NCBI GenBank assembly: GCA_029964075.1
Contig: CM057149.1
Location: 444,465-508,464 of the forward strand
DNA length: 64,000 nt
Source of the DNA: Patiria pectinifera
Lineage: Eukaryota; Echinodermata; Asteroidea; Valvatida; Asterinidae
Direction of reading: 5' to 3'
Positions 1,737-61,917 of the stretch are shown here, in pieces (position 1 is the stretch's first letter; the number at the start of each line of letters is the position of its first letter). Below the pieces are notes generated by a model. The model worked only from the letters and a program-made list of their open reading frames with translations, had not been told where the DNA came from and did no database searches. Position numbers and translations under genes: made by a program.

Positions 1737-1737
1737 T

Positions 1738-3408: not shown

Positions 3409-3980
3409 AAAAACAGTAAATGAACCATCGACCGTTTTGTCGTTTTACAGTTTTATAAAACGACAAGCGGTATTAAGATAAATACGGTTTCTCCGTTTTA
3501 TAAATTTAGTAAAATTCATTATAGCATAACGATCAATGATTTTTGTTTTACAGTTTTACACAAATAACTTTGAAAAACAGCAAAACGGTCAGTATTGAAT
3601 ACAGACTGTTTTTTTTATTTTAGTGTCATAGTTAACAGTCCGTGGTGCATTTTGTGGCGGTGGGCAAGGGGGTGGAGGGGGACCATGCTTACACGAAGAA
3701 GTGTTGGCTCGCCATAATTAATGCGTGGTGTGATTCCTGGCGTGACCCTGACCCCCTTCTCATGCGATTCAGTTGGTGGGTCTTAAAGAGTTGCAAGCAA
3801 AAATGGCGCTTGAAAACTTCAAGGGAGGACATTACTTTTCACAATGGATACAGGATGGTAAGACGTTTGAAGATGTTGCAGATATTTTGAAGGCAATTGG
3901 AGTTCAAGTCGACGCAGCTCTTCAATAGCCAATTCGCGAATTCTGTCGTGAGAACGAAATGTAAGGAGGGCCCAGGTCCA
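3409..3980 (+). repeat. second, partial copy of the 2508-3408 unit
   Basis: Direct repeat of about 2562-3110: the same ATAACGATCAATGATTTTTG, CAGTATTGAATACAGACTG and GTGGCGGTGGGCAAGGGG blocks. The coding-like part is diverged and frameshifted but keeps LQAKMAL and a TFEDVADILKAIGVQVDAAL stretch better than copy 1, suggesting the two copies decayed from one real coding sequence. Confidence 0.75.
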
Positions 3981-4019
3981 ATGACAGTCTTGGCCGTTTC
4001 CTCAAGAGCAGTTCTCAAG

Positions 4020-5060
4020 CTATTGGACAGTGTCTGAACATCTACATGTATATGACAGATCAGTAGCCAGGTCCTGCAGAACTTCGAAACGGTTTTTCAA
4101 GGAGATGTTAAATTATTGTTGCACACTGCTACTATCCTTCAGCTTTGTCCAGTTGTATTTTGGTCTGATACATCTCTTTCTTCCTGCTGTTCAGAGGCTG
4201 CAGAGCTTTATTCTGGCAGTGACGATGCGATGGTCAGAGTCTAGTTCGACGGTATTGTATGACCGGCAGTTTCTAGCGGAGTTTAGCTGCACTTTCCCGA
4301 CAGGAGGATGTGGTCCAGGTGAGCCTGGCTGTGGGTGCTGCTATGTCCATTGTCTACCGCTGTGATGTGGGAACATTGATTCCAGTCATTTTCATGTTGT
4401 GAATTTCACAGAAGTCTACCAATCTCTGCCCATTGTCATTAGTGGAGGCGCGATAACAGTGCAGACCAATGACTCCTGGGCTTATGATGCTAGAGTATGT
4501 TCCATTTCTGCCATTACAGTCACCAAGAATAATGGTGATGCTATGCTTTGGAATTCCCTCCAGAGTGGACTGTAACGTATCGTAGAAGTTGTCTTTAGTA
4601 GTTTCGTCTGCTGCCTCTGTAAGGGCATACACGACAATCACAGTAGTTGTAGGATATTGTCTTCGAAGTTTGCTAACATGATGCGGTTCTCAATCTCCTT
4701 AACATGTCGGAGATACTTGGCCAGATCTTTATTTACCAAAAGACCGGCTCTTCCTGTACCGTTGCTGTTACATGAAGCATTGAGTAAGAGCCAACCCCTG
4801 TTTTCTTCCCATCTGTAGCACAGCCTATGTCATCTGTTGTGATCAAGCGGTGTTCTTGTATCCCTACAATGTGTATATCTGCTTTATCGCAGCCGCTTGT
4901 CAGTTGGTATCCATGGACATTGAAGTCCTTAAGGTTTTTCTTAGTCCTAGGTGCCGTATCGGGGGTAGAGATCTTTGTGGTTTCCCCATGCACCGTCATT
5001 GATGCATCACGTCTGTTCTGCTGACACTTCGCACTTCGAATATTTGTTTGTTTTTTCCTT
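4020..5060 (-). pseudogene. non-LTR retrotransposon endonuclease fragment (RTE-like?)
   Basis: Reading from about 5060 down, translated pieces follow the order of an AP-type endonuclease: ADIHIVGIQEHRL, a VVYALTEA strand, IPKHSITIILGDCNGRNG with the GD(F/C)N active-site loop, and near 4230 a LDSDHRIVTARIKL end with the catalytic SDH. Stops and frame changes separate the pieces, so it is dead. The reverse transcriptase part is absent. It abuts the oppositely oriented CR1/L2-like element at about 5060, apparently a head-to-head arrangement. Clade assignment is uncertain. Confidence 0.7.
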
Positions 5061-7662
5061 GTGTCTTTCGTAATCAAGTTTTGCATTGGAAACTTTTGCT
5101 GCTCGGTGATTTCAACCGCCATGCAGACTGTCCTGAGAAACCGGATGTCGCCCAGATGTCTGCCATTCTCTCTGCTTCAGGACTGAAACAACATGTTACT
5201 GAGCCTACGCATGCACAAGGACACACTCTAGATTGGCTGGTGACCAGAATCAAGGAAGATGGATTATTGATCAATCGCAAGGTCGACATGAACGAAATAT
5301 CTGATCACGCTGTGGTTTCTTGTAAACTTAATCTAACTAAACCGAAAGTGATTATCACTTCATCTTCATCCCGCAACTATGGCAAGATAGATCACACAAC
5401 ATTTGCAAATGATCTGTCAGATCACCTTCAGCATGTGTGTCATGATGGAACTGTTGACAAATTCTTGAACGATATTGATAATGCCATCATCACAGTTCTC
5501 CGTACACGCACCTACGTCATCCTGCTCTAAGCCCAAGCGCCACAGACCTAAGTGGTATAACAACTCAATCGATAAGGCAAGACGTGAGCGTCGCCGAGCT
5601 GAACGCAAATGGCGTAAGTCAAGATCTAACGCTGACACAATTTGCCTTTGACGCGGCCAAGCGCACCGTCTCTGAAACTCTTGCTTCTGTTAGATGCAGT
5701 TTCTACAAGGAATCCTTGACTAACACAAATCCTAAAATCGTCTTCCGTACCATCAATGAATTGATTGGCAGCATCCCACAAGGACCCACCGTTTCAATCT
5801 CACCAACTGCGCTGGCCAACCAATTTAGTCAACGTTTTACGGAGAAGGTAAAGAACATTCGTTTGTTTATTGCCGATCACCATGTCGACGAGCAACTGCC
5901 TGTTACCTCGCCGTCTGCAGATTGCCAGTTGTCTGATTCTCATCCTGTCACTTCTGAAAAACTCTTGAAGATTGTTCAGCGATCTACCAATAAATCGTGC
6001 CAACTGGATCCTATTCCCACATCGTTACTCAAGCGTCACATTATGACCTTTCTTCCCAAGTTGACTGAGATTGTTAATGCATCCTTACAATCAGGTGTCT
6101 TTCCGGAGCGTCTGGGGGATGCAATAGTAACACCAATCTTGAAAAAGCCTTCACTGGATAAAGAGGATCTTAAGAATTATCGCCCAGTTTCTAACATCCT
6201 CTACCTGTCCAAAGTCATTGAAACAGTAGTCTGCTCCCAACTCACTCAATACCTGGACGATCACAAGCTACTGGATCCGTTGCAGTCAGCATACAGAGTT
6301 GGTCACAGCACCGAGACGGCTCTGCTCAGGGTACACAATGACATCCTCCGTGCAATGGACAACAGCAGAGCTGTTTTCTTAGTAATGCTTGACCTCTCTG
6401 CTGCTTTTGATACTCTTGATCACGATATCATACTGCAACGGTTTCGTGATCGATTTGGAATCACTGGAACTGCCTTTCAGTGGTTCTCGTCCTACTTCAC
6501 AGGAAAAACACATTGGGTTCATGCTGCAGGTGCCAACTCCGACGTCCATCACCTTGAGTTTGGTGTCTCTCAAGGATCTGTTATCGGTCCACGTGCTTTC
6601 ACATGTACGTTACTCCTATTTGGGACATCCTTCATCGGCATGGAGTAAGTTACCACATGTATGCTGATGACATTCAAATTTACCTGGATTTTAATCCTAC
6701 CATTCCGTGTGATGCTGAGAGCTGCTTGTTTAGGCTATCCAACTGCATTCAGGATGTTCAAACCTGGATGCTTGCAAACAAACTCATGCTGAATGAAAAC
6801 AAAACAGAGGTTTTCATAGCATCGTCGCCATATCATTCCAAACGTCTTCAGCTACTAACCCTCACGATAGGCAACACAATTTTCAATCCTGTCTCATCTG
6901 TTCGGAACTTGGGAGTAACCTTTGACAACTCCATGCCAATGAGTCAACATGTACTGGTCTGTGCAGGTCCATTAACTATCACATACGCAACATCACAATG
7001 ATCCGTAAATACCTGGACTACGACACCTGTCACTCTGTTGTTCGTGCACTGGTACTCTCACGCCTTGACTACTGCAACTCTCTTCTCACCGGACTTAGGC
7101 AACACGATCTCAACCGCCCACAAAAACTCCAAAACAAGGCTGCTCAACTGATCCATATGAAGCCGAAGTATTTCCCTGCCACACCTCTGCTCCTGGATCT
7201 CCATTGGCTTCCAGTCAACCAGCGGATCACTTTTAAGACGGCACTGAACATGTACAAAACTGTATCCAACACTTTCCCACCATACATTTCGGACACAATC
7301 GATTTCAGCAAACCCAAACGTGAAGGTCTTCTATCACAATCCAATCTGGTGGTACCTCGATCCTCCAGAAATATTGGAGACCGTGCATTCTCCATCGCTG
7401 GTCCCCGTAGCTGGAACTCTCTCCCCATTACCATCCGGAACGCTTCATCTGTAGAGCAGTTTAAGGGACTCTTAAAAACACATCTGTACAATTGTACCTT
7501 CTAATTTGTATTAGATTCTGTTGTAAGACATGTATTTATATGCTCTTTTTTGGACAATCACATTTTGGTTTTGGTAATTTGGTTGCATTCTCCCCTAGCG
7601 CTTTGCATCCTTTGTAAAAGGCGCTTTATAAATACGGTTATTATTATTATTATTATTATTAA
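5060..7662 (+). mobile_element. 5'-truncated CR1/L2-like non-LTR retrotransposon
   Basis: In order: the second half of an AP endonuclease (LLLLGDFNRHADCP, then EISDHAVVSC), a linker, and a reverse transcriptase with LDLSAAFDTLDH, a GVSQGSVIGP motif and the YADD catalytic box at about 6659, then the C-terminal region to a stop at 7502-7504. Frames change near 5530, 6600 and 6995, so the copy is inactive. The 3' end reads GGCGCTTTATAAATACGG followed by (TTA)n at about 7640-7660, the simple-repeat tail typical of this superclade. The 5' half is missing. Confidence 0.9.
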
Positions 7663-8228
7663 GTAATTTGCAGGAAACTGCAGGATTCATATGGGAGATT
7701 AGCCCTATGCTTTAAGGTCCGCTTGTTAAGCACCCGGACAGCAGTCAAGGATCACTGGATATGATGTGTCTTGCCTCTGACCTGAAACATGATGGCCCGG
7801 TTGAACTGAATTAGCCATAACGGAGTCATGATTAGCCTCATGGGTTGCTATTTAACCCACACTGCCTCGCCATGGTAGCCGGGTGAATTAACCTATCGAC
7901 TAGTGAATTTCTATATGCTCGAGGACAATGCTTTGTGCTTCACTTGGCCCCTGTTATATAATATAACACTCTTTCATAGACTAAGCACATAACCGTACAA
8001 TTTCATAGACTAAGCACATAACCATACAATCGAGGACCGTTTTCAATATAAGACCCAGCGCTTGAGGACTGAACGGATCTGTTGTTCTCCCTTTGTGCGT
8101 CTGTGCCCTATCGCAAAGACAAGAGCACAGACGAAGTAAGGGTGTTGGCTCACTGAAACAGTCACGGTGGAAACGCCATAAATCCTATATAGCAACCTAC
8201 AGCGTGTGGACCATTATTTCTTTTTAAC
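7663..8228. other. no gene seen; short tandem repeat inside
   Basis: 7972-8029 is a 29-bp unit (TTTCATAGACTAAGCACATA plus nine) repeated twice. Nothing else recognised. Confidence 0.5.
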
Positions 8229-23043: not shown

Positions 23044-26000
23044 CTGTTAAGAAAAGCACTGACTGTTAACTCAGGAGATATAAGAGTGGGTATTCAGGAG
23101 CCAAATGAAGGGCACACCACGTCTGTTTGACTCTTGAGTGGCATAGTTCTTCACATCACCCAAATTTACATATTTGAAAGTTGAGACAACTCCACGTGTT
23201 TGATACTATTATCACATTTTAAGTGGAGTCTGTTTGTGGATAGTAATTCATTGTGTTTTTTTATATAGATTTCTTTGGTTGATAATTTAGCATGATTAAA
23301 ATTATTAATACTAAAATTGACGTTGCCAGTAAAAGTCACATTGTCTGTTAACAACACATGATAGACTAGGCGATATTTCAAAAACTGTTACATGAAGAGG
23401 CATTGGGGTGCTGAATCCAAAAATAATGCTTACCCAGCTGGACTGTTTTTAGTGGAAATATGCCTAGTTTGCATAAATCTTAATACCTGTTGTGTAATAA
23501 ATTTGTTCTCATATTTGGATATATTTTTAATTTAATTTAATTTTTTTAAAGTTTATTTTGGTGATTCTAATTACACTTGCTTACTTCAATAACATTTTTT
23601 AAAGCATATAAGTGACTATGATTATGAGGACATAGTAACAATCCAAAATGGCTTCTATTACATGTATACCCCAAAATTGCGCGCATTTACCTTGTCTGCA
23701 GATATCATCAAGTAGTCTTGTCAAACCTCAGTATTGATGAGCTTCAAATTCACCAAGTTGCTTACTGGCACAGTTTCCCTATTAAACCTTATGGAAATTA
23801 TGTGAACAATGATAACATCTTGACATTTAGCCAAGCAAACCAAAACAGAGGGGGATCAAGGCATCCGTAAATTGGGCTATAAAGTAGGTGAAGGGTTGCT
23901 TAACGTTCGAGACTTGAACAAGATCAAGGAAAATTCCGAAAATTATGGGTAAGAAAACATTTTGATCTTGACATAATTATTGTAAGCAACAATAATCTTT
24001 TATTTTGGGAGATTTCCTTAAAGTTGTTCAAGTTCCCCACATTAGGCAACAATTAGCCTAATTTTTAGCCCAATTTACGGACACTTCATTTTCCCCGTTT
24101 TCTTTTTTGGCCTTAATATGAAGACGTTATCATTTTTTCAGATGATTTCCCATTTCTTTTTGTTAGGGTAACTGTGCCAGCAAGTAACTTTATGAATTTG
24201 AAGCTCAACATAACTGAGGTTTGGCAAGACTACTTTATGATATCTGATGAAATGCACGCAACTTTAGGGTATAATAATAGCTATTATGGATTGTTACCAT
24301 GTCCTCATAATCATTCAGTCACTGCTTTGCTTGTACAAAATGTTATTAAGTCAGGAAGTGTAGGTAAGATCACAAACATAAACTGAAAAAAAAAATAATA
24401 ATAATAAAAATATACCCAAATATGAAAACAAATATATTACACGACAGGTATTTGAGATTTATGCAAATTAGGCCTATTTCCACTAAAAATCCAGTTTGGT
24501 AACAATTATATTCGGATTCAGTACCCCCAGATAGGTAAAATAGCTGGCTTACCAACTTCTACTCAAAACTGCCTCTTGTTGCCTTTAACCCTAAAAAGGG
24601 CCGGTTGGGGGGGGGGGGGGGGGGCCCCTCGACTTTTTTCGCGATAGCCTTGAAAAAGAATTTTTCCAGCCTGAGCTGTTATGACTTTTTAGCCTCAAGC
24701 CTTGCGCATCTTTTGATACCAAAAACATAAAAATCGGACCATGGATTGCTACGCACCGTGAAAAATGAATTTGCCCATATACGTTGTGTTCACAGGGCAG
24801 AATTACCATTTGTACATATGAAAAATTAATTAGCCATAATTCCAAGACCCTTTGAACTAAAGTTACGAAATTTCTTGGGGTATGTTTATGATGAGTTGCT
24901 CTATGCATGTACCAAGTTTCAAAATTTGTCATCACTCGATGGCCAAGATCTTAGGGATCCCCCCCTGGCTGACAGATGGTCAAAATAACCCGGCCCTTTT
25001 AGGGTTAATGAGTCTTTTTTTTTTAATATCACCTAGACTATGACTTTAATAGGTAAATTGTTATAAACATTATTTAGTAAAACCTTTTGTTTTTGTGTTA
25101 GATTATTGTCTCATACTTTGTTAGCAGGAAGAAACCTATTTATTGGACTTGGGAGTTTGTATAATCTGACTTCAAGCACTCTTACTTTTTCATTTTGTGC
25201 CAGTAATCTGATCTTGTTCTCCTTCCGCCCTCTATTGTTATCATCAGCGATGACTGTCTGTACAATCTTCCTCTGCCTAAGCATCTGATGTGATTCTGGA
25301 GTGACTGGTACACTGTCCTCACTCATCAGGGGTTCATCACTGCGCAAGAATGGCACAAAGTCACCATTTTTGAGTGGTGGTGTGTCCGGCAGATCGCTGT
25401 TTTCATCTGTCCAAGTTTGCATATCGCCTTGGTCTTGCACCAAGTCTGTCCTACCATGATGGGGTTTGTGGTTTGGCTTCCTGTCCAGGCTACCTCCAAC
25501 TCTTGATTGAGTCGGCTTAGACCCTTGAACTGTGTCAGGTTGCACAGCCCCAGCAGCTACACGTTTCTTTGCTTTTAAGAGTCTCCCTGGAGCATTCCGT
25601 TCTTGCTCTGCTAAGAGCTCTGCTGCCCTTTGTTGTCGCCTCTCCTCCCGTTTCCTCTTGTTGACAGTCAAATCTTTGTCCGAGTTCTGCTGGAGTTTCT
25701 TGGTCTTGGTATTGGCCCCCCAAACTGGCTTCTCCAATTTCTTGACTGACTTCTTTCGGCTGTTTCCAGGCTCTGATCCCGGTGATGTTGTCCTTGATGT
25801 TTGCTGTGTCTGCGTCATAACTCTGGCATTTACCTCTGACTGTCTTTCCTCTTTGCTAATTCTCTTCTTCTCCCGGGCTTTGTATGTCTGAATACGCTCC
25901 ATTTTCTGATCTTTCCTTCCTGCTTCCTGCTGTGCTATTCTTCTGTGTGGTCGATATTCAATGTGAGCACTGGGCTCTCGCTCCAGTAGGCCACCTTGAA

Positions 26001-29000
26001 GTGTGACATCTTCATGAGGAGGGAAGTGAAACTCTGGAAAAGTCATGCAAGCAGTGTTTGTAAATTACTAATGTACGTCAGTCCGATGACTACTTCACAA
26101 TCATGTTAGAAATCGGCTGCTGATTGATACCCATATAAAATCAGCGGAGATTTGCCAAAAACAAATAAAACATTCAGAACTGTTACACATATTCAAGACC
26201 TTCATGCAAGTCAAGAATCCAATAAAAGTTTGATGGAAATGATCTCATCAGAGCTAGAAATTGAGTAAAACAAAGCATTACGAAACGAAAACAGTGGAGC
26301 TGATGTAAACATAACACAGCAAAGATACCACCACAAAGGTCTTAAAACCAAGACTAGATATTCATGGGAATATCTCAAAATTCAAAGCACATGGAATGCT
26401 CCACTGAGACCAACACCCAGTGGCGTATCCTGGGGGGGGGGCAACAACCCCCCATGAAACCTTCTCGCCCCCCCCCCAGTCGCCCCCCCCCTGAGATGTT
26501 GAGTTTCTAAAAAAATTATCATTGATCTACATGACGCCCCCCATGAAATGTTCCAGCCCCCCCCCCCCCCCCCCCCCTGAAAAATTCCTGGCTATGCCAC
26601 TGCCAACACCAGTTCACATTGTGAACATGTGCATTGTCCTATTGCCTGGGAATGCTCTTGTGTTGTACTTGGAACCCAATATACCTGTTTGCACAGCCTG
26701 GTCATACACAGGTGAGGTGAATGCATCAACCATGATAGGACTGTCTTTTACTTGATTGATCACATGATCCATCACATGTAAAGGTATAGGCACTTCAGGT
26801 GGATGCTGAACATGCTGAGGCACTGTGGGTTGTTCTGGCCTGGGTGAAGTCTTGTAAGCCACTTTGGTGTCCTGTTTAGGAGGGGAATTGTCCTGTTGGT
26901 CTGTGGCAGAAAGGCACCATAATTTGCTCTATTAACTTTATGGACACTCTCAAAATAAATAAGTATACAGGGTGAGTAAAAAAATGTAGCGCTTTCTAGA
27001 TCTAGGATATGAATGCCCAAGTAATAAGCCTTGTTTTGCTGAAGAATCATTTAAATTCCTCATGTACACAAACACTGTTTTTTAACCTTGTCCGTGGATC
27101 ACACTAAGGTATGGGATATTTCAGTAAAAATGAAACCATGTTGTATCCTGAAAATGAAATAAAAAATAGTCCTATAAGTGTCCAGGGCAGCCAAATCCAA
27201 GGCAGGGCATGATTAAGCATGTTATTTTAACATCTGAAGCAGTAGGTTTTTAAATAAATGTTATGATAAGTGTTAGTTATCATGGTTATAATCGTGTTCT
27301 GATGTGTTTTTCTTTACATGTGAATACTTTTTGTTTTGCTGAACTATCACTTACCTTTATTGTGATCCGTGGACAAGGTTAAAAAACTGTGTTTGTGTTT
27401 ACATTCCATAACTGCAAAAGTACATGAGTGATTTGAATGATTCTTTCACTATTAAAGAAAGCTTATTAATTAGGCTTTTTCACACTAGATCTTGAACGCG
27501 CTACATGCAAAACTTCTTTAAACAAGTCAGGTGTGTTTACAAAAACAAATGCCCCACAACCGTGACTGTTACCCATGACATGACACCTCTCTTTTAACAT
27601 CAACTTATCTCGGTCACATGGAACGTTCATTGACATCGTTATTTTAAAAAAAAAATTTTTGCCTTTCTGTTGGGAAGTCATTGTATGTGATTTAAAAGAG
27701 TGAGCGAATAACAAGAGATCTAGTACAAACAAGCTGAATTAAAAAAAACAAAAACATGAAGACACAGCTGTACATAAAATGAAATAAAAGATCACATTAG
27801 GCCAACCCCAAAAAAGTCTCCAGTTTCTGGTCTGCACACACATCACTGTAGCCATTGCCTCGGTAAAATTAAAACATTTTTTTTTTCAATGTAATATGAT
27901 GTCTCAAAACCGCCAAACTCACTAATTTTACTGGAATCCTGCTGCTGCACAGTTTTAACATGTTTTAGACGGGGTTACGATCGAGTATAAGCTTTATGTG
28001 ACCTCTCTAGGCTCCCATTTGTTTTGCACTAAATTAAGTCGGACACCATTTGCAGACGGTGTTGTAATTTTGTAATTGTGTGTCTGGCAGCCAGATTGCG
28101 GAAGTGATGATCGTGTATCTGGACCTGTAAACGCTTTTTAATTACCGCAATATGTAAGGGAGGATGAGAAGCTCATGACCAGCCTGGTAACTCATGCACG
28201 ACGTCGATATCGCTGCATGGTCAGACGTTACTGTTTTCTCTGATTTTTCTCTATCCAAACTTCCCGAAGAATGTTCATGTCATTTGAAATTGTAAGTGTG
28301 CAGAATACTCAAGCCTCATGGCCTAATAGTAAGGTCATCTCAAGCTCCACCCTGAAGGATATTTTGAGAGTTTAAGGGGATCACAGCATTATCTGCAACA
28401 TCAGCAGACATTTGAAGAAGAAAAAAAAAGGGGGGAGGGGAAAACCCACATTGCCCCACCTTTTTGGGGCAAGCTCCATATCAGAAACCGGAGAGTTTTT
28501 TGGCCTTATCATTATATGCTTAATAAACATAGATTGTGTGGGGGGGGGGGGAGAACATTCTTATGGTCTCTAAGAACAATCCACAAACCGAATTGGAAGT
28601 TCATATGTAAAATATTTCTTAAGTTATAGTGCTGACAAGATTTCTATTGTTTTAGCCACTGTGACATGGATTTCCACGAGAAACAAAAAATATTCCTTTT
28701 TAAGCCAGTTTTAATTTTGGCTTTATTTCCAAGACCCTCCTAATGTAATTGAGAAGGTTGTCTTCTCCGCATATGCCCTTCAACATGCAAATACTGTCTG
28801 CAAACAGTTAAAACTTAAATCATTATGGCACCAAGGACGGCATAACAATAAGAATTAAATGAATAAAAACACTAACTGTCCCAGCTGGATCTAAGGTTAG
28901 AAGTATCATGTCCCATCTTAGTCAGTTTCTCCAATCTCTTCTGATGTTTCTCCTTCTGTGCGTCATTGTAAGCTGCCTGCATGCTCTCAACTAAGGCTGT

Positions 29001-36900: not shown

Positions 36901-39900
36901 AACAGGCTCTGCCCACTGATGGGTCAAATTGGATTCAAATTCTTGATGGCGTCGTTTCTCCTGTTCTTTGCGCTCTTGTGCCTCAATACGCTGTTGTTCT
37001 ATTAACAAAAAATATGACATCATCCATTCACATTCAATCACTAGATATACCGGTACATGTACTTATATACAAATAAATCCCTAATAAATACAAACAAAAT
37101 AAAATAAATAAGAAGTGGGCATGAGGGGAACTACATGAATTGTTTTGAGCACAACCTTTGAAACTCTCAAGATCACATGGATACCTCAACATGTTCAAAA
37201 CCAGAGCCTTGATATTGAAAAGTGAAGGGGGGGTTGTGTAATTGCGACAAAAAAAAACAATTGAAATAATAAGTGCTACATCATTAGAAAGAAAATAATC
37301 CAGAATTTTACCTCTTTTGGGGGAGGGGCCACATTTTTAAAACGTGGGAGGAAAAAACAAAAAATCTATCTGTATTAGGCAATCAGAGTGTTTCTGATCC
37401 ATCCAATATATGTGAACAGGGGTAGGTAGAATGTTTACAAGTCAAATCAAAACATATTCTTCCCCTTGGGAGAATTTCACAGTTTTGTTTTCCTATTAAA
37501 AAAGGGACCATATCTGGCATATAACCCAATTTTTGATTGATATGAAGACATTAAATTAACAAACATAGAAAGCCTGTAAAGATTCCTAGGAAATTTTTAA
37601 CTTGCTTTTCATTGTTTTGAGGCATAAAATACCAAATATATATTTCCCCTGAAATCAGCAAAATAAATGTTTGTACAGAGTGTGCCAAAAAGTGCAAAAC
37701 AGTCAGAAAACAAATACATGTACATGTAGTTAAAACTGTTTAACTCCTTGGCTACGGGGAGCGGGCATATTCGCATTGTCGCACGTACACATTACATTCA
37801 TCTCCATCCTGTTGTTGCAGGCAGGTTTTGATTGAAAAGTGTTTTGTTTTAGTAGGGAAAGTTTGGTGAACCTTCATTATTCTTCTAAAACCTAATTTAC
37901 TCATTGAAAGGACCTATTCTTCTCGATTGAGTAGGCTTTTAGCATTAGGAGCTCACTGAGTGCTTTCCATTGTGCACAGGCTAGCAGGCGGTGAATAGGG
38001 GCTTTTGTTCAGTGTAGCGCGCTCCTTTGTATAGGGCATGCTCAGCTGACCACACTGGGCTTTCTGTGTACATGTAAATGTACACAGCCTATAAGCACTT
38101 GCATACACGATGTCTTCAGGTGAGGACGAGCAAACCGTGACTGCTACCAGCGGTTCAGATTCTGATTCGGAATCTGAACAAAGTTCAGAAATGGAAAGTA
38201 GTGACAGTGATTCTAACGAACCGTTAGCAAGGTTAGCGAAGCGAGCCAAGACAACCCAATCAATTCGATGGAAGGACACAGACAAATTTCCTCATCAGTT
38301 TGGCTTTCATGGTACAATGGGAGTTCAAGTGCCGGGTTTGAATGACCTTAGCGAAGCAACGGAGATCTTCGAAAACTTCTTCCCTCCCGAACTGACGGCG
38401 CACTATGCCGATGAGACAGATCACTAGGCCGCCAAGAATCCATAGCGTCAAATGCCAAGTCCAAGTCACATGAGGGAATAGTTTGATACTACACCAGATG
38501 AGATGTCGGTGTTCCTGGCCATGCTAATCATCATGGGAATAATGCCCAAGCCGGACTTGAAACTCTACTGGATGAGAGCCCCCTATTTGAGACTCCGTTC
38601 TCCCCCAACACTATACCCTGAGACAGATTCATGGACTTGCTGTCCCATCTGCACTTCACCGACAACAGTCGGGCAGATACAAGTGATGGTTTCAATCCAA
38701 CTCGGACCCAAGCCAACTCGGACCCACTACCAACTCGGACCCACGCCAACTCGGACCCACTACCAACTCGGACCCACTACCAACTCGGACCCACTACCAA
38801 CTCGGACCCACAACCAACTCGGACCCCTACCCACTCGGACCCATTCATGACCAACTCGGACCCATCGTTTTCAATCATTCGACATCGTTTTCAATCATTC
38901 GACATGTCATAAAGTTTGTCCACTTCTCATCTGTTATTACAGCGATGCTGTTTCGTATAAATTTTCATTGTAATTGTAAGGTAAATTATCAGTATTGCGG
39001 CATTAACATAACATTTTTGTCACTGTAAAGCGCATTGAAATGCTATTTGAAATGCGCTTTAAAAGTGTAATTAATTATTTATTATTATTATTCATTTCCT
39101 TTAAAACATATTGCGCTTTAAAGGTTTAACCAATTATTTATTTTCATTAAAACATATTAATTGACATTGTTTTTCATCCAAACTTCAATGTAACGAATAT
39201 ACAAATTCAGAACAGATCTTCATAAAAAAATAAAATTGAAAAGTATGGCATTGAAACATAAACACTTTCAAACATAACATTATTAACTCAATAAATATAT
39301 TAAAGTAAACATTATAAGTCAATAAATAAAATAAATAAGATATAAAAATGAAGTCTATTCTAATCTCTATTTCAAAAAACAACAACACATAAACACCACT
39401 GCATACACTGCAAGAAAAACGAAGGTTCCATAATAAACAAAAAAGTTAAATCAAAAAAGTATAAAAAGTTAAACAGATTCGTAAAAAAAACCCACAAAAT
39501 TCAAAGCCAGTATGTGAATTTAAAAAAAAAGATCAAGTTAAATCCCCTACAAAAAGATGCAACGTCAATCATCAAAAAGGAGTATTTGAGCTCTGGGAAG
39601 ATTATCCTTCAAGGCCTTACAGGTAGCTACACGAAAAAAATCAGCCCATGACAAGTAATCTATTAATTAATTTCAACCTTAATAGCAGGAAGCTCCTAAA
39701 TTTGTTCTGAATATAGTGCACACCACTTAAAACCACTGTTACACAACACAAAGGCCTGCAAAAACAAACAAGCAATATATTTCTTACTAAAAATTATAAT
39801 CCTTTGAATTTCGTTTGGAAAAGAAAATCGACATTTTGAAAAGCATGTATATATCAAGTTGTACAAATGACATACGATATGCCTAACCTATACTATACGC

Positions 39901-42900
39901 TTCTTGGTTTAGCTTCACAGGTCACGGTTTCAAAAAGCTAAGCACGTTTAGTTTCATGACGTTCAAAACAATAAGCGTTTAGCAACAGTATACTGTAGAC
40001 ATCATAAAATACCACTCCACACAGCGGCAATAAAAGAAAACAAAACTAAAAGCCCCATTCTGCCCAATATAATTACAGAATATCTCCACTATATAAGCAC
40101 TGTAACATTAAGATGACCTATAATTCTAATCTCTGAAATAATGATTGAGTCACTGTTGGGACCAAGTTGGTCGTGCTTTGGTCCAAGTTGGTAGTGGGTC
40201 CGAGTTGGTAGTGGGTCCGAGTTGGTCGTTGGTCCGAGTTGGTCGTGGGTCCGAGTTGGTCGTGGGTCCGAGTTGGTAGTGGGTCCGAGTTGGTAGTGGG
40301 TCCGAGTTGGCGTGGGTCCGAATTGGCATGGGTCCGACTTGGTTTGGGTCCGAGTTGACCTGATACCCAAGTGATCACCTCTACAAGGTCCGCCCGGTGG
40401 TAGATACACTGACTGAGAAATTCAAATCGGTCTACCTTCCTGACAGCCGTATATCAACGAATGCGCCACTGTGGAAGTTCAAGGGGAGATTGAAGTTCAA
40501 ACAATTCAACCCCAAGAAGCGCGCCAGCTTTGGCATCAAGGTATACAGAGTCTGCCAAAGTACGGGAGCTGCCTCCAGATATACATGTACCTGGAACTTG
40601 AAAATACTGTTTTTCTTGACAACTGGTTCAGCAGCCCTTCTCTGTTCCGGGAAATCCACAGCCACAAGACCAACGTCATCGGGACAGTCAGAAAAAATCG
40701 CAAGGACATGCCCAAGGATTTTGCGACTTGCAACTTCATAAAGGTGAAGTTGCATATCGCTCTTCAGACAAAGGCCTGCCTGCCTTGGTCTGGAAAGACA
40801 AGAAAGATGCATGTTGTCTACGATACACACGGCGGCAATGGGGGGCCGGGACTCCAGCAAGCCCGAACGGGACAACAAGCCCATCGAGAAGTCCAAGTGC
40901 GTCATCGACTACAACACAGGCATGAATGGCGTGGACATGTCAGACCAACTTGCCTCATCTCACTGCTCGGTCAGGAAGTCCATCAACTGGTACAAGAAAC
41001 TGTTCATCTACCTGCTAGATGTCTGCCTTGTGAACTCTCATCTTGTGCACGAAGCATTGGGTAGGACTGACAAATACCTGTACTTGAATTTCAGGTGGAC
41101 ACTATAGTGAATGAAATGTTAGATGCCCACACACCAAAACTCCCTGTACATGTATATGGATCTAGAGGTAGACATCCTGTCTTCCTACTCCAGGTAGACT
41201 GTTTAATAGGAAGACATATTCCTGCTGACATACCCTCAACGGGGAAACGTGCTAGGTTGTTCAAACGTTGTGTTATTTGTTCAAGAAACTTCATGAGTAA
41301 AGAAACTAGGTTCATGTGTGAATCTTGTGAAGTTCCCCTTTGTGCTGCCCCTTGTTTCAAAATGTATCATTCGACAAAGGAAATTGTTTGATACCCTGGT
41401 ACAACCCACCTAACAAACATAATTTCACTGTACAGCATTTTAGTTTCATTTCAGTTGTAATTATAAAGAGAAAAAAAGACATTTGAAAATAACATTTCTA
41501 TTCAATTCAGTTACTTCATTTTATTTGTAATTATGAGAATAAGAAAGAAAGAGAAAATCAAAAGTGCAAAATCATTTTTGTAAATGTAAAGAGGAATAAC
41601 AAAGAATTGACAAGAGATATGTAAAAAAAAAATGGAAACAAAAACCCAGTTTCTGTCGTATTGGGGTACATGGTAAGGGTTCAAATGGTAAAAAAGAAAA
41701 TATTTACAGATGAGATATATTTTATGGTATGGATAGTCAAATGGGGGGAGGGAATACTAACGGGTGAAAGTATTAAAAGAAATAGCATCAACTATTCTAC
41801 AAAAATGAACACGTGCAATTCTGAAAGATAAGCAGTTCTACCATAGTCAATTCTTTCTGGGTATACGAACGTACAGAATGTACATGTACACAAAGTCATG
41901 TACATGTACATGTACATGGGCCTACGTGGAAGTAAAATAGCGCGCAATCCAGCACCTCGGCCTGGCCGGCACTGTGTGTGTGTGGCCCGGCGATTATGGC
42001 AGACACTTCCTGGTTGACCCCACCATGTAAGGCTGTAGTCATTTAATACCGGCTGCCCGGCAACTACTCGAAAAACAAGCCCGGGTTCAAGGGGTTGTTT
42101 TTCTTCAATGAAATTGTATATTACATTGTTCATTAAAAACTGACTATTTCTCAATCCACTCCTTTTTACCCCATTCCAATTGATCCAGAAATGCAATCGA
42201 TTTATTAAAAGGTTGTCAATTTTACTAAGGCTGTGACTCACCTGTGATGTCACCAACTGCAATGCCTTTTCACTGCTTAACCCAGATTCAGCATGTCCAG
42301 GTGAAAGTGGGCCAAGTATTAAGTTTACATCCTGTCACTTAAAGCCTCAGTCACACATTTATGGCTTTGAGCTACGGATATCCAAGGTTTAAAATTTGTG
42401 ATAAACTGTGGGAGTACCGTATTCATCCTTTGTACCTCCATGGTTATCCGTCATCTTCCTTGGGTTTATGTGGAGGGGCTACAGAAATTGAAGTCTGTTC
42501 CAAACTTCCGTGTTGAATCGTCATTAAAGTCAATCCATAGTGCAACCGCAGGACATCCGTAAGACAACCGTACTAATTTGTAGTGTTATTGTGGCTATTG
42601 GCACATATTCTTGGAGAGTCGTAGCTCATTCGTGGTAGAAATATCTATGAATTTGCTACGAATGTACTACGGATATGCTGGGATTCTGCTAAGGTTGTAA
42701 TATTTATGCTTTATTTGTAGGAGAACCTTGGTCATCTGTGGCATTAACGTCATTATTCTTAGTAATACCGTCGATATTCTTGAACAATCCGTCCATATTC
42801 TGGACGAACGGCGGTGTATTTGTAAAGAAACCTTAGGACAATCGTGGCTATCCGTCCTGAAACCGTAGTGCATTCTTAGAAAGTCAATTTCTCTACGAAT

Positions 42901-53584: not shown

Positions 53585-54827
53585 TGTCGAGCGCAAAGTG
53601 AGTCCCCCGCGCAAGTTTGAACTTGCGCGCGCAAGTTTAAACCTGCGCGCACGCAAGTTTAAACTTGCGCGCGCATTCATTTCCTTGCTACAAATTGCGC
53701 ACGCAAGTTTAAACTTGCGCACTGCATAGAATTTCCCGGCCACGCATACAGAGCCGCTAAACTATTTTGCCCAAAGGCTGGGTATGCTCATGCAGATATG
53801 TGACATTATTTTTAAAGCAGATTTTTTCTCCGATTTAATAGCATCACTGAGCTTCGGGAGACAATGCCTTAATGCCTTTTTTTTAACATTTGATTAAATT
53901 CATGAATTAAAATTTATTTACTTTTTAAAATAATTACCATTTTATATGCATAGCGTTTTTAAGTTGTTAACATTTTTGAATATGAATTATTGAGCCTGCA
54001 ATAAAAAATATTTATTAAAGTAATACATTTAATTAATTAATTAAATTAGTAATGTATTCATTAATTTTTTTCAAATTATGCATTTTTGAAGTGTTCACAG
54101 CGCTCGGAATGTTATGCAAGCATTTCTAAAAACAATATCAATTTATTAATTGTTAAATTAATTCGTATTTTTTTGAAGAGTAAGTACTTTTTTAATTGTA
54201 GAATACATAAGCATTTTAAAAAATAATGTAAATGATTAGTATCATGTCAAAACTTGAACAATTGAAGGGATCATAATCATTCTTTTTATGTTAACAGCGG
54301 GTTACACCTAGGAAATTATGATTTATTTACATTCAAGAATATAAATAAAATGCAAATTAGGTTTACAAAGCAAAAAAGTTGAAGCTGGTCTCCATTTTTG
54401 AACAACTTCAGTACACTTTCCAAGCAATCGCCGCTAGTGTGCTAAAGTTGATTGCTTGCCCGGTCCCCTCCCTGGCCCCGCCCCCACGTACCCTTAAACA
54501 GCTTCTCTGATAAGCACTGCTAAATCTCAATGTTTCTTTTCATTGACGCTAATTGAATTCCCCTTTTTTATTTATTTCTTTATTCATTCATTTATTCCAT
54601 TATTTCTCCATGTAGGCCTACTCGTGTTTTGAAAAAAAAAATTCTTCATTTTCAATGAAAATCCCGCCCGCAAAAGAAGGTTGCGATCGCCTTTGCGCAA
54701 GTTTAAACTTGCGTACGCAAATTAAAATGGCGCGGTGTAATTTGCGTGCTTCAGGAGTCCCTTGCGCAAGTTTAAACTTGCACGCGCAAGTTTAAACTTG
54801 CGTGGGGGACTCAAATTGCGCTCGACA
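53585..54827. mobile_element. 1,243-bp element with terminal arrays of GTTTAAAC-centred palindromes
   Basis: Inverted ends TGTCGAGCGCAAAGTGAGTC on the left and GACTCAAATTGCGCTCGACA on the right, flanked by TGCC at 53581-53584 and 54828-54831. Just inside, seven copies of GCGCAAGTTTAAACTTGCGC (some with one mismatch) occur: four at 53610-53725 and three at 54698-54802. The core is AT-rich and non-coding. Confidence 0.85.
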
Positions 54828-56087: not shown

Positions 56088-56518
56088 ATTTCAAGTAGGA
56101 TTTTCATAGACAGATCCAAATTTCCATTAATTCAAAATAAATTATTTATTTCAATAACTATATTATTAAATATTAAAAAGGGTTTGTAAACATGGTAACT
56201 TTTATTGTGAAAAAGAAAAAGAATACAAAAATTAAATAAATAAACAAATTAAATAACGATTAATGCCAGCGTTCATGATAAAGCATTCCTTATTTTACCT
56301 ACTTCTCATTTGAATGCTGGACCCGAATCATCTGCCCAGTATACAAAGTGAGTGCACGACCCCCGCCCCCACCCCCCACATTTTTTCATCGATTGATAAA
56401 ATTAATGAATTTAACATTGATTGGTCCGGCATTTCAAGAGTGAGGGCTCCCCTATTAATCTATTCGTATTGTTTTTAAAAGCACGTTGCCTACGGCTAAA
56501 ATGCCGTGCAAAATATAT

Positions 56519-57350
56519 TGTGACGGAATAGGAATTAAGTCACCAACTGTATGTTTTAAATACATTAGCACACTGTGAGTCACCCACACTTTGCATATAA
56601 GGGATCCTTGGTTCTGATTGGTCAATTGAGTTTATGCACTGTTGTATGGCAAAGAGAAGTTGTGCACAAGCTTATGGGGCTCAAAGTCTATAAAAGGAGC
56701 TGCAGGGCTAGGATTTAGTCAGTTGATTGCTTGATTCTCTGACGATTAGACTAATTGCTAAGGCTCTTGATTATGTGGAATGACATGACGGATGATGATG
56801 ATTAAAGGCTTGACCACCGTACTTGATTACTGTTTCTGTTCACCAATTACTAGTCTGTCTTAGGGTATAGGGTCTACCTAGGATAAGTTGCTCCACCCAC
56901 ATTCCGACTCCGCCGCCTCCGCCCACATTCCGACTCCGCCTATTCCACCCAATTCCTACTCCACCCACATTCCGACTCCGACTCCGCCTATTCCACCCAA
57001 TTCCTACTCCACCCACATTCCGACTCCGCCGACTCCGCCCACATTCTGACTCCGCCTATTCCACCCATTTCCTACTCCGCCGACATTCCGACTCCACTGA
57101 CATTCCGACTCCGCCGACATTCCGACTCCACTGACATTCCGTCTCCACCCACTTCCGACTCCACATTCCGATTCCCAGTTCCCACTCCCATTCCATTGCC
57201 CTGACTACCAGTCTACTGGCTGATCCAACCAACCCAGAAGAGGGGATAGCCTGGTGCTGTGGCCCACCACTGCAGGGATAGGACACCATCGGGACGGCAC
57301 GCTACCAATCAAACCAGCCTGACGAAGGAGAGCTGGCACGACACGTCACA
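56519..57350 (+). repeat. 5' LTR
   Basis: 832 bp, TGTGACGG to CGTCACA (7-bp inverted ends). It carries a GATTGG CCAAT-type box near 56618 and TATAAAA at 56689-56695 (promoter), then a pyrimidine-rich minisatellite at 56893-57175 built on CCACCCACATTCCGACTCCG. Confidence 0.93.
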
Positions 57351-57368
57351 TTGGTGGCAGCGGTGGGA
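57351..57368 (+). other. primer binding site candidate
   Basis: TTGGTGGCAGCGGTGGGA follows the 5' LTR directly; TGGCAGCGGTGGGAT is shaped like the complement of a tRNA 3' end. The exact tRNA was not determined. Confidence 0.6.
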
Positions 57369-57424
57369 TCCACCAGGAGAGAAACTTCAGTGGAATTCAG
57401 CAGCTGAAGGAAGAAGACAACGGA

Positions 57425-60415
57425 ATGGAACAAAGAGAGCAAGCAGTGCTTACACCGGGGAGACACCGAGTGGAAGAAGTCGACTCGGGAGTGGAGTTCC
57501 GGTATCAAGGCAGTGACTTATTTCCAGCGGCTGTGGGAAGTGCGGCGACGAGCGGAGCAAGCAGTATCCTTCAACCGGTCCAGGAAGCATCGCAGCTCCA
57601 GTTCTCTCCAATGACATCCACCGTGAACCCAGGGCTGTTTCTAGGGAGATCGACAGGATGGACAACGGTTGGAGAAGAGTGGGCAAGGCAACCGATGGCG
57701 AGCATCAACCCTGCACATCTTGAGGGGTCTCAACAGAGAACTCCACAACGTGGATGGATGGGAGAGCTGGGGGAACCAGCCGGAGGATCGCCGATGTTGA
57801 ACCCACTGAGCACCTCTACTCCAGTGAGCCACTTACAGATATCAGGAGCCAGAGTAGAGCAAGCACCAAGGCTACCAGTGACGATCGGGAAGATCGAAAA
57901 CTGGTGCCAGGGGGGAGCAGGAGCAAGGGAATATTCCACCAGAAGTGTGAATATTGGAACTTCCGCACCACCAGGAATCACTACCGTCAGTGGAGCATGG
58001 CAAGCACCACCGGGGTACGGCCCGTACGTGCCACAAGTCTTCAGCACTATGACGGCAGGACTGCGGACATCCCCGGGGTATGCAGCAGCAGCAAGGCAGT
58101 CTACAAGCGGAGCAAGCATAAGCACGGCTTCTGCTCAAGGGAGACCGTTTGAGGTTCCCGAAGCGGGAGCCGGAAGCGAGTACAGGCTGGTTTCAAGTGA
58201 ACGGTCAAGCACGTGGAGTCCAGTTTTTGCAACCAAGATGGAGTCGAGTCAACCACAGCTACCACCGAAGGTTTCCTCACCGATGAAGGTGGAGGGACTG
58301 GAGAAAGGGTTGGCGGGAGCGACAATTGGGAGCAAGAAACCAGAGGGGCCAACAGCGGAACAAGAGAAAAAGACAGGTGCAGGGGAGGAGAAGATCCACC
58401 GAGCACAACGGAAGCCGAGTTTTGTTCCAGACAGATTTTCAGGGGACATTCCCTGGAGGGATTACAAGGCTCATTTTGAGTCTTGTGCCACGATCAACGC
58501 GTGGACCTCTGCAGAGAAAGCATTTTTCCTGGCAGCAAGCCTGAAGGGGCAGGCCCAGCAAGTGCTTGGAGACGGGGTCCAGGGCGAACCATTGAGCTAC
58601 AACGACCTTACTACAAGGTTGGAAAGACGATTTGGTCCCGGGGAGCAGGCCGAGAGATTCCTGTCGGAACTGAGGAGTAGGACAAGGGGGGTCAACGAAG
58701 GTCTACAAGCACTCGGACACAGCATCCGACGGCTGACGGAATTGGCATACCCTGAGCTCCCCAGAGATTCACGGGAAAGACTCGCCCGAGGGCATTTCAT
58801 GGATGCCATCCCAGATGCAGAAGTGCGTGCGGGAATCTTCAGAGCACACCCCAAGTCCTTAGATGAAGCGATACGGGCGGCCCTGGAGACAGAATCATTC
58901 ATCAACTCCGAGAGACAGAGGCAGGGGGGCCAAGGTGGTCGCCAACCTCCAAGGACACATCGGTACGTCGAGATGGTCTCTCGAGAGGAGTTCAACCGGC
59001 ATACACAGGGCATGTTGGAACAACTCAATGCATTGGAGGCAATGATAGCTGGCCTAGCAGAGGCAATGCACAGCAAGACCGCAGCTCCGAGGAGTAACGA
59101 AGGAGGAGTAAACGATGCTGGGATTCAGAGAGATGGAGGAGGAAGACAACCATGGGACATCGAAACCTGTCACAATTGCGGGGGCTTGGGACATTTCAAA
59201 AGAAATTGTCCAACTCCTATGAGCCGAGGATGGGCTACTGGAAACCCCAGGGGACTAACACAGCTAGTCGTGGGGAAGCCGTCTCTACCAGAGCAGAGCC
59301 AAGTAACCGACACGGCGACGACAAAGGCTACTCTCAAGGAGTCCAGTGGAGAAAATGAAAGAGGGGCATGGACGTTGACAAGAACTCCAAGGTGGACACT
59401 GCGGGAATTGAGGGACGCACAGCTGGCGGATTCTTCAATAGGGCCGATGATGCGGGCGATGGAGAATGGTGAGGAGCCAGTATGGGAAGCCATGTCGGAG
59501 GAATCAGCAGCTATGAAGACACACTGGGTTCAGAGGCAGCTACGGATCCGGAATGGTGCGTTGTCACGTCAATGGAAGTTGGAGAATGGAAAACGCGGCA
59601 GATGGCAGATTGTCCTACCGCCCACATTGCAAGAGAAAGTTCTCAAGGAACTACACGACAGTAAAGTGTCACGTCACCCCAGCGTCTACAAATCACTGCA
59701 GATAGTGCGCCGACGCTACTACTGGTCGGGCATGACGAAGGATGTACGGACAACAGCAACGAGGTGTGAGAGCTGTGGCCATGCGAAGTCCCATGGAAGA
59801 AAGGCTCATGGACTACTCAAGCAACATGTGGCAAAAGCGCCAAGCATGGTGAGAGAGAACACCATGGTGAGGCCACGTGTGTGGAAAGTGAGGTGCTCCA
59901 ACAGCATTTCAGTGGGATTCCAAGGGAAGGTTCAACAACATTCCACTGGGGGAAAGTCAGCAAGATTCCAGCCACATTCCATCAAGACTTCGGCATCCCT
60001 CCACCGATATTCCGATCATGTTCCGAGACATTCCACAGAAATTCCAACAGTATTCCACCAGGGCATTCCACCGAGATTCCAGCTACGAAGGAAGATGCCA
60101 GAAGACAAGCCCAAGTGGGGAGCCGACAAGGCCAAGGACCGGCATCGAGACCCTCGAACCCATCCCCAGCCACACGAACCGAAGCACCGCTGCCCTGAGC
60201 CAGGGTGTGGAACGACCACGACCAAAAGATCCAACCTCGTCAGGCACATGAGGGAGTGCCACAGGGAGCAGTCCCAATTCCGCTGTGCCGTATGTGGAGA
60301 ACGATTCACAAGGAGGGACTCCCGGGATCGACATGAGAAGAACCACCGGGGTGCGGGCAGCACAAGCCACAAGACCCAGAGCCAGAAGTCCAGACCGTCC
60401 ACATCACGCCCGTAA
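57425..60415 (+). CDS. Gag / integrase-zinc / C2H2-finger chimeric retrotransposon protein, 996 aa
   Basis: Residues 1-330 are low-complexity Ser/Gly/Pro/Gln. About 333-500 is a retrotransposon Gag (capsid) domain starting FSGDIPWRDYKAHFE. A CCHC knuckle, CHNCGGLGHFKRNC, lies near 581. About 655-740 resembles the RNaseH-integrase linker, followed near 743-790 by an H2C2 integrase zinc-binding domain (HDSKVSRH ... CESC). About 835-910 is Ser/His-rich and coded by DNA with recurrent ATTCC words. Two C2H2 fingers (CPEPGC...HMRECH and CAVCGERF...HEKNH) lie at 921-965. No reverse transcriptase or DDE core exists, yet the frame is fully open, so the protein is probably still selected for packaging or targeting. 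The fingers may be captured from a host gene. Confidence 0.88.
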   Translation: MEQREQAVLTPGRHRVEEVDSGVEFRYQGSDLFPAAVGSAATSGASSILQPVQEASQLQFSPMTSTVNPGLFLGRSTGWTTVGEEWARQPMASINPAHLEGSQQRTPQRGWMGELGEPAGGSPMLNPLSTSTPVSHLQISGARVEQAPRLPVTIGKIENWCQGGAGAREYSTRSVNIGTSAPPGITTVSGAWQAPPGYGPYVPQVFSTMTAGLRTSPGYAAAARQSTSGASISTASAQGRPFEVPEAGAGSEYRLVSSERSSTWSPVFATKMESSQPQLPPKVSSPMKVEGLEKGLAGATIGSKKPEGPTAEQEKKTGAGEEKIHRAQRKPSFVPDRFSGDIPWRDYKAHFESCATINAWTSAEKAFFLAASLKGQAQQVLGDGVQGEPLSYNDLTTRLERRFGPGEQAERFLSELRSRTRGVNEGLQALGHSIRRLTELAYPELPRDSRERLARGHFMDAIPDAEVRAGIFRAHPKSLDEAIRAALETESFINSERQRQGGQGGRQPPRTHRYVEMVSREEFNRHTQGMLEQLNALEAMIAGLAEAMHSKTAAPRSNEGGVNDAGIQRDGGGRQPWDIETCHNCGGLGHFKRNCPTPMSRGWATGNPRGLTQLVVGKPSLPEQSQVTDTATTKATLKESSGENERGAWTLTRTPRWTLRELRDAQLADSSIGPMMRAMENGEEPVWEAMSEESAAMKTHWVQRQLRIRNGALSRQWKLENGKRGRWQIVLPPTLQEKVLKELHDSKVSRHPSVYKSLQIVRRRYYWSGMTKDVRTTATRCESCGHAKSHGRKAHGLLKQHVAKAPSMVRENTMVRPRVWKVRCSNSISVGFQGKVQQHSTGGKSARFQPHSIKTSASLHRYSDHVPRHSTEIPTVFHQGIPPRFQLRRKMPEDKPKWGADKAKDRHRDPRTHPQPHEPKHRCPEPGCGTTTTKRSNLVRHMRECHREQSQFRCAVCGERFTRRDSRDRHEKNHRGAGSTSHKTQSQKSRPSTSRP

Positions 60416-60932
60416 TTGAGCTGCAAGCCGCTCCTCCTCAGAGGCAAGCTGCTCCGACGTCAACCTCTGAAGTGGAAGGACTGTACTTCCACGAAAAGGG
60501 GGGAAAGTTCCAGAGAATGTTACGCCAGGGAAAGGCTACATACATCAGAGGGTGAAGAGGACATCAACAGGGAATACGGCAACACAATCTGTTGGAACGA
60601 TGTAGCCTGCCATCATGAAAGGATGACAAGAACTTCCACCTAAACTCTTAAGTCTCTATAAAAATAACATTGAGGAATGTTTTCTGAAGAAATTAAAGTT
60701 TATACGATTTTGTTCAGATCGGAGATATTTGTAAGTCAAGTTTTAAAGCTAAGTTTTGAATCACCAAGTGGTTGTTTTTCAAAGTAATGTTTCCAAGAAG
60801 TATTGGAATGTGCTTAAGATTTACCAAACTTAGTTTTCGTGTAAAATATTTTTGTCTTAGTTATTTCATCTGAGTTGTTTTATCAAAAGCTCTTGTAGTT
60901 TTCAGGGACTGAAAACTTTGGGAGGGGGGCTA

Positions 60933-61784
60933 TGTGACGGAATAGGAATTAAGTCACCAACTGTATGTTTTAAATACATTAGCACACTGTGAGTCACCCA
61001 CACTTTGCATATAAGGGATCCCTGGTTCTGATTGGTCAATTGAGTTTATGCACTGTTGTATGGCAAAGAGAAGTTGTGCACAAGCTTATGGGGCTCAAAG
61101 TCTATAAAAGGAGCTGCAGGGCTAGGATTTAGTCAGTTGATTGCTTGATTCTCTGACGATTAGACTAATTGCTAAGGCTCTTGATTATGTGGAATGACAT
61201 GACGGATGATGATGATTAAAGGCTTGACCACCGTACTTGATTACTGTTTCTGTTCACCAATTACTAGTCTGTCTTAGGGTATAGGGTCTACCTAGGATAA
61301 GTTGCTCCACCCACATTCCGACTCCGCCGCCTCCGCCCACATTCCGACTCCGCCTATTCCACCCAATTCCTACTCCACCCACATTCCGACTCCGCCGCCT
61401 CCGCCCACATTCCGACTCCGCCTATTCCACCCAATTCCTACTCCACCCACATTCCGACTCCGCCGACTCCGCCCACATTCCGACTCCGCCTATTCCACCC
61501 ATTTCCTACTCCGCCGACATTCCGACTCCACTGACATTCCGACTCCGCCGACATTCCGACTCCACTGACATTCCGTCTCCACCCACTTCCGACTCCACAT
61601 TCCGATTCCCAGTTCCCACTCCCATTCCATTGCCCTGACTACCAGTCTACTGGCTGATCCAACCAACCCAGAAGAGGGGATAGCCTGGTGCTGTGGCCCA
61701 CCACTGCAGGGATAGGACACCATCGGGACGGCACGCTACCAATCAAACCAGCCTGACGAAGGAGAGCTGGCACGACACGTCACA
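60933..61784 (+). repeat. 3' LTR
   Basis: 852 bp, the same sequence as the 5' LTR apart from a T/C change in GGGATCCYTGG (near 61020) and a 20-bp net gain in the CATTCCGACTCCGCC minisatellite. TATAAAA is at 61103-61109. It is preceded by the purine tract at about 60920-60930. Confidence 0.93.
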
Positions 61785-61917
61785 ATATAGTACCCGCCGA
61801 GCAGAATCCGTTGTCGTTCGTACACAAACTTTAGGCATGCTATTGCTATTAGACACAATTTTACACCAACCATAGAGCTAGGACCCTAGCTCTATGCACC
61901 AACTACATACAGACAGA

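Follow-up and report, generated by a model that had tools for sequence, protein, structure and literature searches.

A probable parasite of a Ty3/gypsy retrotransposon in the sea star Patiria pectinifera, its fusion of capsid, integrase zinc domain and C2H2 fingers, and the candidate LTR-reading third gene of its partner

The element described here occupies positions 56519-61784, on the plus strand, of a 64,000-nucleotide stretch of the Patiria pectinifera genome (contig CM057149.1 of assembly GCA_029964075.1, positions 444,465 to 508,464), hereinafter the window, and is a young LTR retrotransposon with the same boundaries as in the preliminary description of this DNA. The 5' LTR (56519..57350, 832 bp, with TATAAAAG at 56689 and ATTAAA at 56801) and the 3' LTR (60933..61784, 852 bp) differ, over 832 aligned positions, by two mismatches and a single 20-bp gap within a tandem array, and the element is bracketed by the target-site duplication ATAT (56515..56518 on the left, 61785..61788 on the right). 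A primer-binding-like site, named as such from its sequence, directly follows the 5' LTR (57351..57368, plus strand) and reads TTGGTGGCAGCGGTGGGA; it may fit the 3' end of tRNA-Leu, a putative primer. At the other end, the purine tract GGGAGGGGGGCTA adjoins the 3' LTR edge, in a plus-strand region (60898..60932) of which all 35 bases are identical in four of six long relatives, the differing ones being L045 and L047. The LTRs contain tandem arrays, located after their TATA-like and ATTAAA motifs, in which every GNGGAG site is on the minus strand, with 16 sites in the 5' LTR (56891..57164) and 18 in the 3' LTR (61305..61598), where the enrichment was measured. The alignment of the LTRs and the flanks bear out the earlier reading of a recent element with LTRs, primer site, purine tract and ATAT duplication.

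The interior includes a stop-free run of 1020 codons, compared to a maximum of 319 in 300 order-1 shuffles and 483 in 300 order-2 shuffles, and a fused frame of 996 codons (57425..60415, plus strand) that encodes, in this order, a capsid, a zinc knuckle of the CCHC type, the H2C2 domain of an integrase and a pair of C2H2 fingers. Pfam searches of the ORF recover Integrase_H2C2 (E 2.1e-16) and zf-CCHC (E 3e-5), and zf-C2H2 is detected when the tail of the ORF is searched by itself (E 6.2e-9); the capsid match is weak (Retrotrans_gag 0.018, Ty3_capsid 0.12, both under the curated cut-offs), and structure predictions for the capsid region are of low confidence (mean pLDDT 44.6 and 62.7). All on the plus strand, the Gag capsid region spans 58400..58950, is the last part before the fingers to be near-identical to the long relatives, and is followed by the CCHC zinc knuckle (59165..59212), the integrase N-terminal H2C2 zinc domain (59618..59791), an ATTCC-rich repeat stretch (59846..60091), finger 1 (60191..60262, helix KRSNLVR) and finger 2 (60284..60346, helix RRDSRDR). 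Another plus-strand open stretch in a different frame (60337..60552) has no Pfam match and, by eye, is like the part of the long relatives' third gene that comes after the fingers. Protease, reverse transcriptase, RNase H and the integrase core were not found by Pfam in the ORF or in 10 further open stretches of the interior, so that the searches and the ORF call agree with the initial claim that these enzymes are absent while a frame of 996 codons stays open.

Elsewhere in the window, there are LINE-like fragments at 5048-7504 (plus strand), including a frame at 5584-6645 that matches RVT_1 (E 1.4e-15) and another with a weak match to Exo_endo_phos, and a 311-aa open frame at 25111-26046 (minus strand) that has no Pfam match at E 0.1. 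Two 17-bp tandem arrays, at 38697-38864 and 40180-40357, are apparent reverse complements of each other about 1.3 kb apart and could be the ends of a DNA transposon; a DDE_Tnp_1_7 transposase fragment (40471-41061, plus strand, E 3.8e-9) lies near them. Repeats of the palindromic CGCAAGTTTAAACTTGCG occur at 53608-53675 and 54764-54801.

The 613.5-Mb assembly (1020 contigs) contains relatives of this element in two size classes. A search with the LTR head, in which 40 of 147 candidate places were scored, yielded inter-LTR spacings of about 4.35 kb (one of 3.85 kb) and about 8.0-8.5 kb; from these, we retrieved six long and seven short copies, followed by seven additional loci found via the join between H2C2 and the fingers. 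In the DNA search for this join, with all 15 candidates scored, 13 copies including that in the window span it; the copy at C20:2990824 matched in two pieces, and two of the 15 candidates match partially. A single odd copy is thereby ruled out, and the refuting condition named earlier, that the join occurs in no other copy, proved false. Exact 4-bp target duplications flank 11 of the 12 short copies and all six long ones, in the form RTAY in 15 of these 17, and the LTRs show zero differences in two of the 12 short and three of the six long copies (L062, for which one end was not found, was omitted from LTR dating). Both classes have thus been recently mobile. Among the 13 short copies, about 1000 open codons are found only in the window and in L060. 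L051 has identical LTRs, yet carries two frameshifts and four in-register stops, along with a 5-base length difference at 60408 that is common to eight of the 12 copies; most likely, it was copied when already broken.

The long copies carry LTRs matching those of the window element, and in four of the six, all except L045 and L048, Gag, Pol and a third frame are all open. In L043, the 3' end of Gag (997-3003) overlaps the start of Pol (2898-6980), which is read in another frame. Pol, searched in pieces, shows the order gag-asp_proteas, RVT_1, RT_RNaseH, Integrase_H2C2, rve, Integrase_p58_C; ORF3 (7362-8108, 249 aa), a separate frame between pol and the 3' LTR, matches zf-C2H2. The order protease, reverse transcriptase, RNase H, integrase, combined with the exact duplications around every long copy, places this partner among Ty3/gypsy elements. 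Among the four long copies compared, dN/dS is 0.18 for Pol and 0.34 for Gag. The window element has the same LTR, lacks the enzymes and recurs in one layout in several copies, as is characteristic of a non-autonomous derivative. The search of the same genome for full-length, same-LTR partners that the preliminary description proposed was, therefore, successful, and the presence in these long copies of protease, reverse transcriptase, RNase H, H2C2 and rve supports its suggestion of a parasite of an autonomous partner.

What was said about the fingers fared differently. They had been thought to replace the catalytic core and to have been acquired by the parasite as a nucleic-acid-targeting domain of its own, but they are already present in the partner, downstream of pol, as ORF3. 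The opposite conjecture, that they are an ordinary integrase C-terminus, came near in that the partner has fingers after pol, but is inexact, given that the integrase ends in Integrase_p58_C. Because the partner has them as a separate ORF3, the fingers are neither a host-gene capture by the parasite nor an integrase C-terminus. ORF3 comes in two types, one in L043, L045 and L048 and the other in L044, L046 and L047; the finger region of the window is 73-81% identical at the protein level to the former (80% for the fingers compared to L043 ORF3) and 63-64% to the latter. The ATTCC-rich stretch between H2C2 and the fingers appears to be the positional counterpart of the array that precedes ORF3 in the partner. 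As a separate observation on L043-L048, near-identical Pol is paired with either of two very different ORF3 types, as if ORF3 were an exchanged module.

Compared to the six long copies, the window element is a mosaic. Over two segments of the LTR, the N-terminal part of Gag and the capsid up to about 58950, identity is 93-99.5% (in L048, the first Gag segment is covered in small part only), and it is again 97-99% at the head of the 3' LTR. The central cassette (58951..60897, plus strand), the 5' edge of which was placed from segment identities and is approximate, is 69-81% identical to the partner where alignable: 69-77% over 58951-59808, with 59276-59390 unalignable, 72-81% over the finger part (in three copies, over part of the region) and 71-80% over 60776-60932, with no alignment over 59809-60091 and 60412-60775. 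The LTRs, capsid and purine tract are thus common to the two classes, and the cassette is distinct. Compared to the other short copies, identity is 86-100% outside the finger part and 60412-60620, 84.5-98.4% over the finger part (except for L066, with 78.6% over a small section of it) and 79-82% over 60412-60620. In the tree of LTR heads, the classes are intermixed: the window element falls with L051 and the long copy L045 (support 0.89), and L049 clusters with a trio of long copies (0.91). In the tree of Gag, L049 joins five long copies (0.96), and in the cassette tree, the window element joins L066 (0.89). The simplest reading of these patterns is recombination between the short and long classes, and the cassette has an older ancestry than the LTR and capsid. 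A closer source of the cassette was not found, the best long open Pol frames, among the 150 of 1342 candidates scored, belonging to the same long family at 62-63%. We also note that L066, which in the cassette is the copy closest to the window element (98.8% over 58875-59808), ends exactly at 59808.

ORF3 extends beyond the window family. When the finger region was used as a protein query, at least 84 matches were obtained (150 of 1475 candidates scored), and beyond the window family, several of these are in open frames of about 200-290 aa, the C-terminal part of ORF3 being conserved as judged by eye. At all four loci retrieved with upstream sequence, a gypsy pol directly precedes the finger ORF, and compared to L043, Pol is about 75% (L077), 49-58% (L078), 68-72% (L079) and 97% (L080) identical; because the LTRs of L078 and L079 are very similar, these loci represent two to three further families rather than four. 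In L085 and L088, a pol match from an integrase search is located on the same strand, some 1.5-2 kb upstream. A long coding stretch (L081) adjoins the L077 element on its downstream side; by eye, it resembles a capsid-type protein of a Polinton-like element.

The finger helices can be set against the arrays by means of the Zif268 code, under which finger 2, having Arg at positions -1 and 6, is expected to recognize GNG; the expected reading of finger 1 is G, then the base set by position 3, then the base set by position -1. On these predicted preferences, and with counts compared to shuffles, four classes of ORF3 helices pair with GNGGAG, GNGGAA, GNGGCT and GNGGAT arrays, respectively. In the window family (K or V, N, R), GNGGAG occurs 12-21 times in seven LTRs, compared to 1.9-3.0 in shuffles, and the type II ORF3, with Val at -1, shares the LTR array of type I. 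In F77 (Q, N, R), GNGGAA is found nine times in the LTR (1.6 shuffled) and 23 times before ORF3 (1.7), and in F78 and F79 (S, S, R), GNGGCT is found 63 and 11 times in the LTRs (4.3 and 1.4) and six and seven times before ORF3 (0.8 and 1.1). The matches of classes A-C were made with the arrays already known; for class D (L, N, R; L085 and L088), GNGGAN was fixed from the fingers alone, before the arrays were counted. In these two loci, GNGGAT is the top GNGGNN word, with seven and six occurrences upstream (1.8 expected) and 12 and 14 downstream (3.3 and 3.5), and the class pattern ranks 4-8 of 256 in the four regions. L087 agrees with GNGGAT, L089 is weak, L095 agrees upstream (6 vs 1.4) and fails downstream (3 vs 6.0), and in L086, which has one finger and for which an LTR was not found, a match is absent upstream and downstream. 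Altogether, the pattern belonging to the class is among the 13 highest-ranked of 1024 in 20 of 28 regions; this tally combines 16 of 19 regions in the first test with four of nine added later, which raised the misses from three to eight, and applies to loci with a finger frame, L084, L096 and L097 having been left out as none was found. The eight regions that do not fit are the arrays preceding ORF3 in L043 and L044, the matching stretch of the window, both sides of L089 and L086, and the downstream side of L095. Because tandem arrays exceed shuffles for any word that they contain, the weight rests on covariation rather than on shuffle counts: the base preferences expected from ORF3 finger helices seem to covary with the tandem arrays of their own LTRs, a relationship that we believe to be new.

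As a rival to binding, C-rich tandem arrays and C2H2 fingers with a liking for G-rich triplets could match by chance or through the choice of pattern, and we would assign this explanation a substantial probability, if one short of even. The comparison involves four helix classes only, three of them matched non-blind; GNGG by itself is not generally enriched, ranking 2-25 of 64; GNCGGA outnumbers GNGGAG in the LTR of the window element (24 vs 18); and eight of the 28 regions fail. That type II ORF3, despite Val at -1, occurs with the same LTR array as type I also counts against binding. Against a chance match, a class's own pattern reaches the top ranks in the 20 regions that fit, classes B, C and D fit in differently built arrays, both in the LTR and before ORF3, and the class D pattern was set beforehand. 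The possibility that the fingers of the parasite were taken from a host C2H2 gene, to which the sequence match with solved host fingers such as those of Zif268 might seem to point, is very improbable: among the matches listed, the closest genomic ones are other short and long copies, which bears on the parasite fingers and not on the ultimate origin of ORF3, and in each of L077-L080, the finger ORF is preceded by a gypsy pol.

A different alternative concerns the fused frame, which might be functionless, with an internally deleted element spreading via its LTR, packaging and priming signals and the open frame left over from a recent intact ancestor. L051 indicates that the fused protein is dispensable in cis for some copies, as this one most likely moved recently when already broken, and the loss of the full frame in 11 of the 13 short copies suggests that it may be unnecessary. 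The ATTCC-rich repeat stretch is near neutral, with a pairwise dN/dS of 0.92 (0.47-2.63) in the 10 younger short copies (L050 included; L062-L064 are only in the 13-copy set, and L065, a fragment, and L066, truncated at 59808, are outside the codon analysis), and in the same set, the integrase fragment is at 0.60 (0.40-0.97), the N-terminus at 0.50 (0.41-0.64) and the CCHC region at 0.36 (0.18-0.65). However, dN/dS is 0.17 (0.10-0.29) for the capsid and 0.24 (0.11-0.58) for the fingers, and in all 13 copies, 0.27 (0.19-0.39) and 0.25 (0.14-0.40), respectively, showing that both are under purifying selection. The low value of the capsid may have been imported from the partner via recombination; this is less likely for the fingers because the cassette differs from the partner. 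The zinc ligands of finger 1 are intact in 13 of 13 copies, those of CCHC and H2C2 in 12 each (H2C2 being unreadable in one) and those of finger 2 in 11, with Arg at position 6 of finger 2 changed to Gly in two copies and unreadable in one, and the frame lesions differ from copy to copy. On balance, we regard a functionless frame as a serious contender that falls somewhat below an even chance.

We therefore consider it probable that the window element is a non-autonomous member of a Ty3/gypsy family that lives off intact same-LTR relatives; the shared ends, the duplications and the broken but recent copies suggest that it moves with the proteins of the partner. The LTR would drive the RNA and a tRNA would prime it, the proteins of the partner would package, copy and integrate the RNA of the parasite, and template switching between co-packaged RNAs could keep LTR and capsid alike. 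With less certainty, ORF3 might bind the tandem arrays in the LTR of its own element, and the fusion might couple array binding to a capsid protein. When made, the parasite protein, which would not be needed by every copy, could co-assemble by means of its capsid and so place the fingers at the LTR arrays, tethering the parasite LTR DNA or competing with the ORF3 of the partner. Points that count against this explanation are the weakly constrained integrase fragment, the unconstrained repeat stretch, the missing full frame in most short copies, the zinc ligand of finger 2 lost in two of 13 copies and the array misses. More tentatively, and at somewhat less than even confidence, a clade of animal gypsy elements could encode a third protein with two fingers that coevolve with arrays in its own LTR and before its own gene, that is, a self-addressed regulator (an activator or anti-silencer), and the parasite in the window could have fused this reader to a capsid and an integrase zinc domain, under selection.

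Parasites of LTR elements that retain Gag are known, for the most part from plants, where TR-GAG elements consist of LTRs, a primer site, a purine tract and a Gag frame, without protease, reverse transcriptase, RNase H or integrase core. The window element likewise has a Gag frame without the enzymes, but this frame adds H2C2 and two C2H2 fingers and so is not a single Gag alone, and its cassette goes back further than its LTR and capsid. Beyond the genome, relatives of the window protein were not found in IMG/VR protein scans, and the 33 IMG/VR contigs that contain a 17-base primer-site pattern include no homologue (best tblastn E 2.3); neither the phage collection nor NCBIfam gave a match, and one candidate from a GTDB scan (L034, E 3e-4, 34% over about 90 residues) was judged to be a chance match. 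In the literature, with Repbase and most subscription papers outside the scope, we encountered no account of gypsy elements with a C2H2 ORF3, which is weak evidence of absence.

In non-autonomous pararetroviruses of grasses, recombination in particular regions is described as keeping the defective members similar to their autonomous partners (PMC5491270); as reported there, it is noncoding regulatory sequences that are homogenized, whereas here it is the LTR and the capsid coding region of an LTR retrotransposon. In the present case, the autonomous partner, the parasite, the homogenizing recombination and the source of each domain can all be read within one genome. Plant gypsy elements such as Retand have further ORFs that lie after pol and before the 3' LTR (PMC11963269, PMC7264820), and the likeness comprises the location of the added gene at the env position, a prediction of DNA binding and family-specific tandem arrays, but the ORFs that these sources describe are mostly antisense TRP28 frames, compared to a sense two-finger protein here. 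The closest parallel in logic is VANC of the VANDAL transposons, an anti-silencing protein, unrelated to ORF3 as described, for which the target motifs are tandem repeats in the element that change with the protein, and for which binding and loss of methylation were measured (PMC5735166). For ORF3, helix class and tandem motifs fit each other in 20 of the 28 regions, over four classes, and in eight they do not. If this covariation is due to binding, ORF3 would follow the logic of VANC in a retrotransposon, as a retargetable, element-encoded reader of the element's own DNA.
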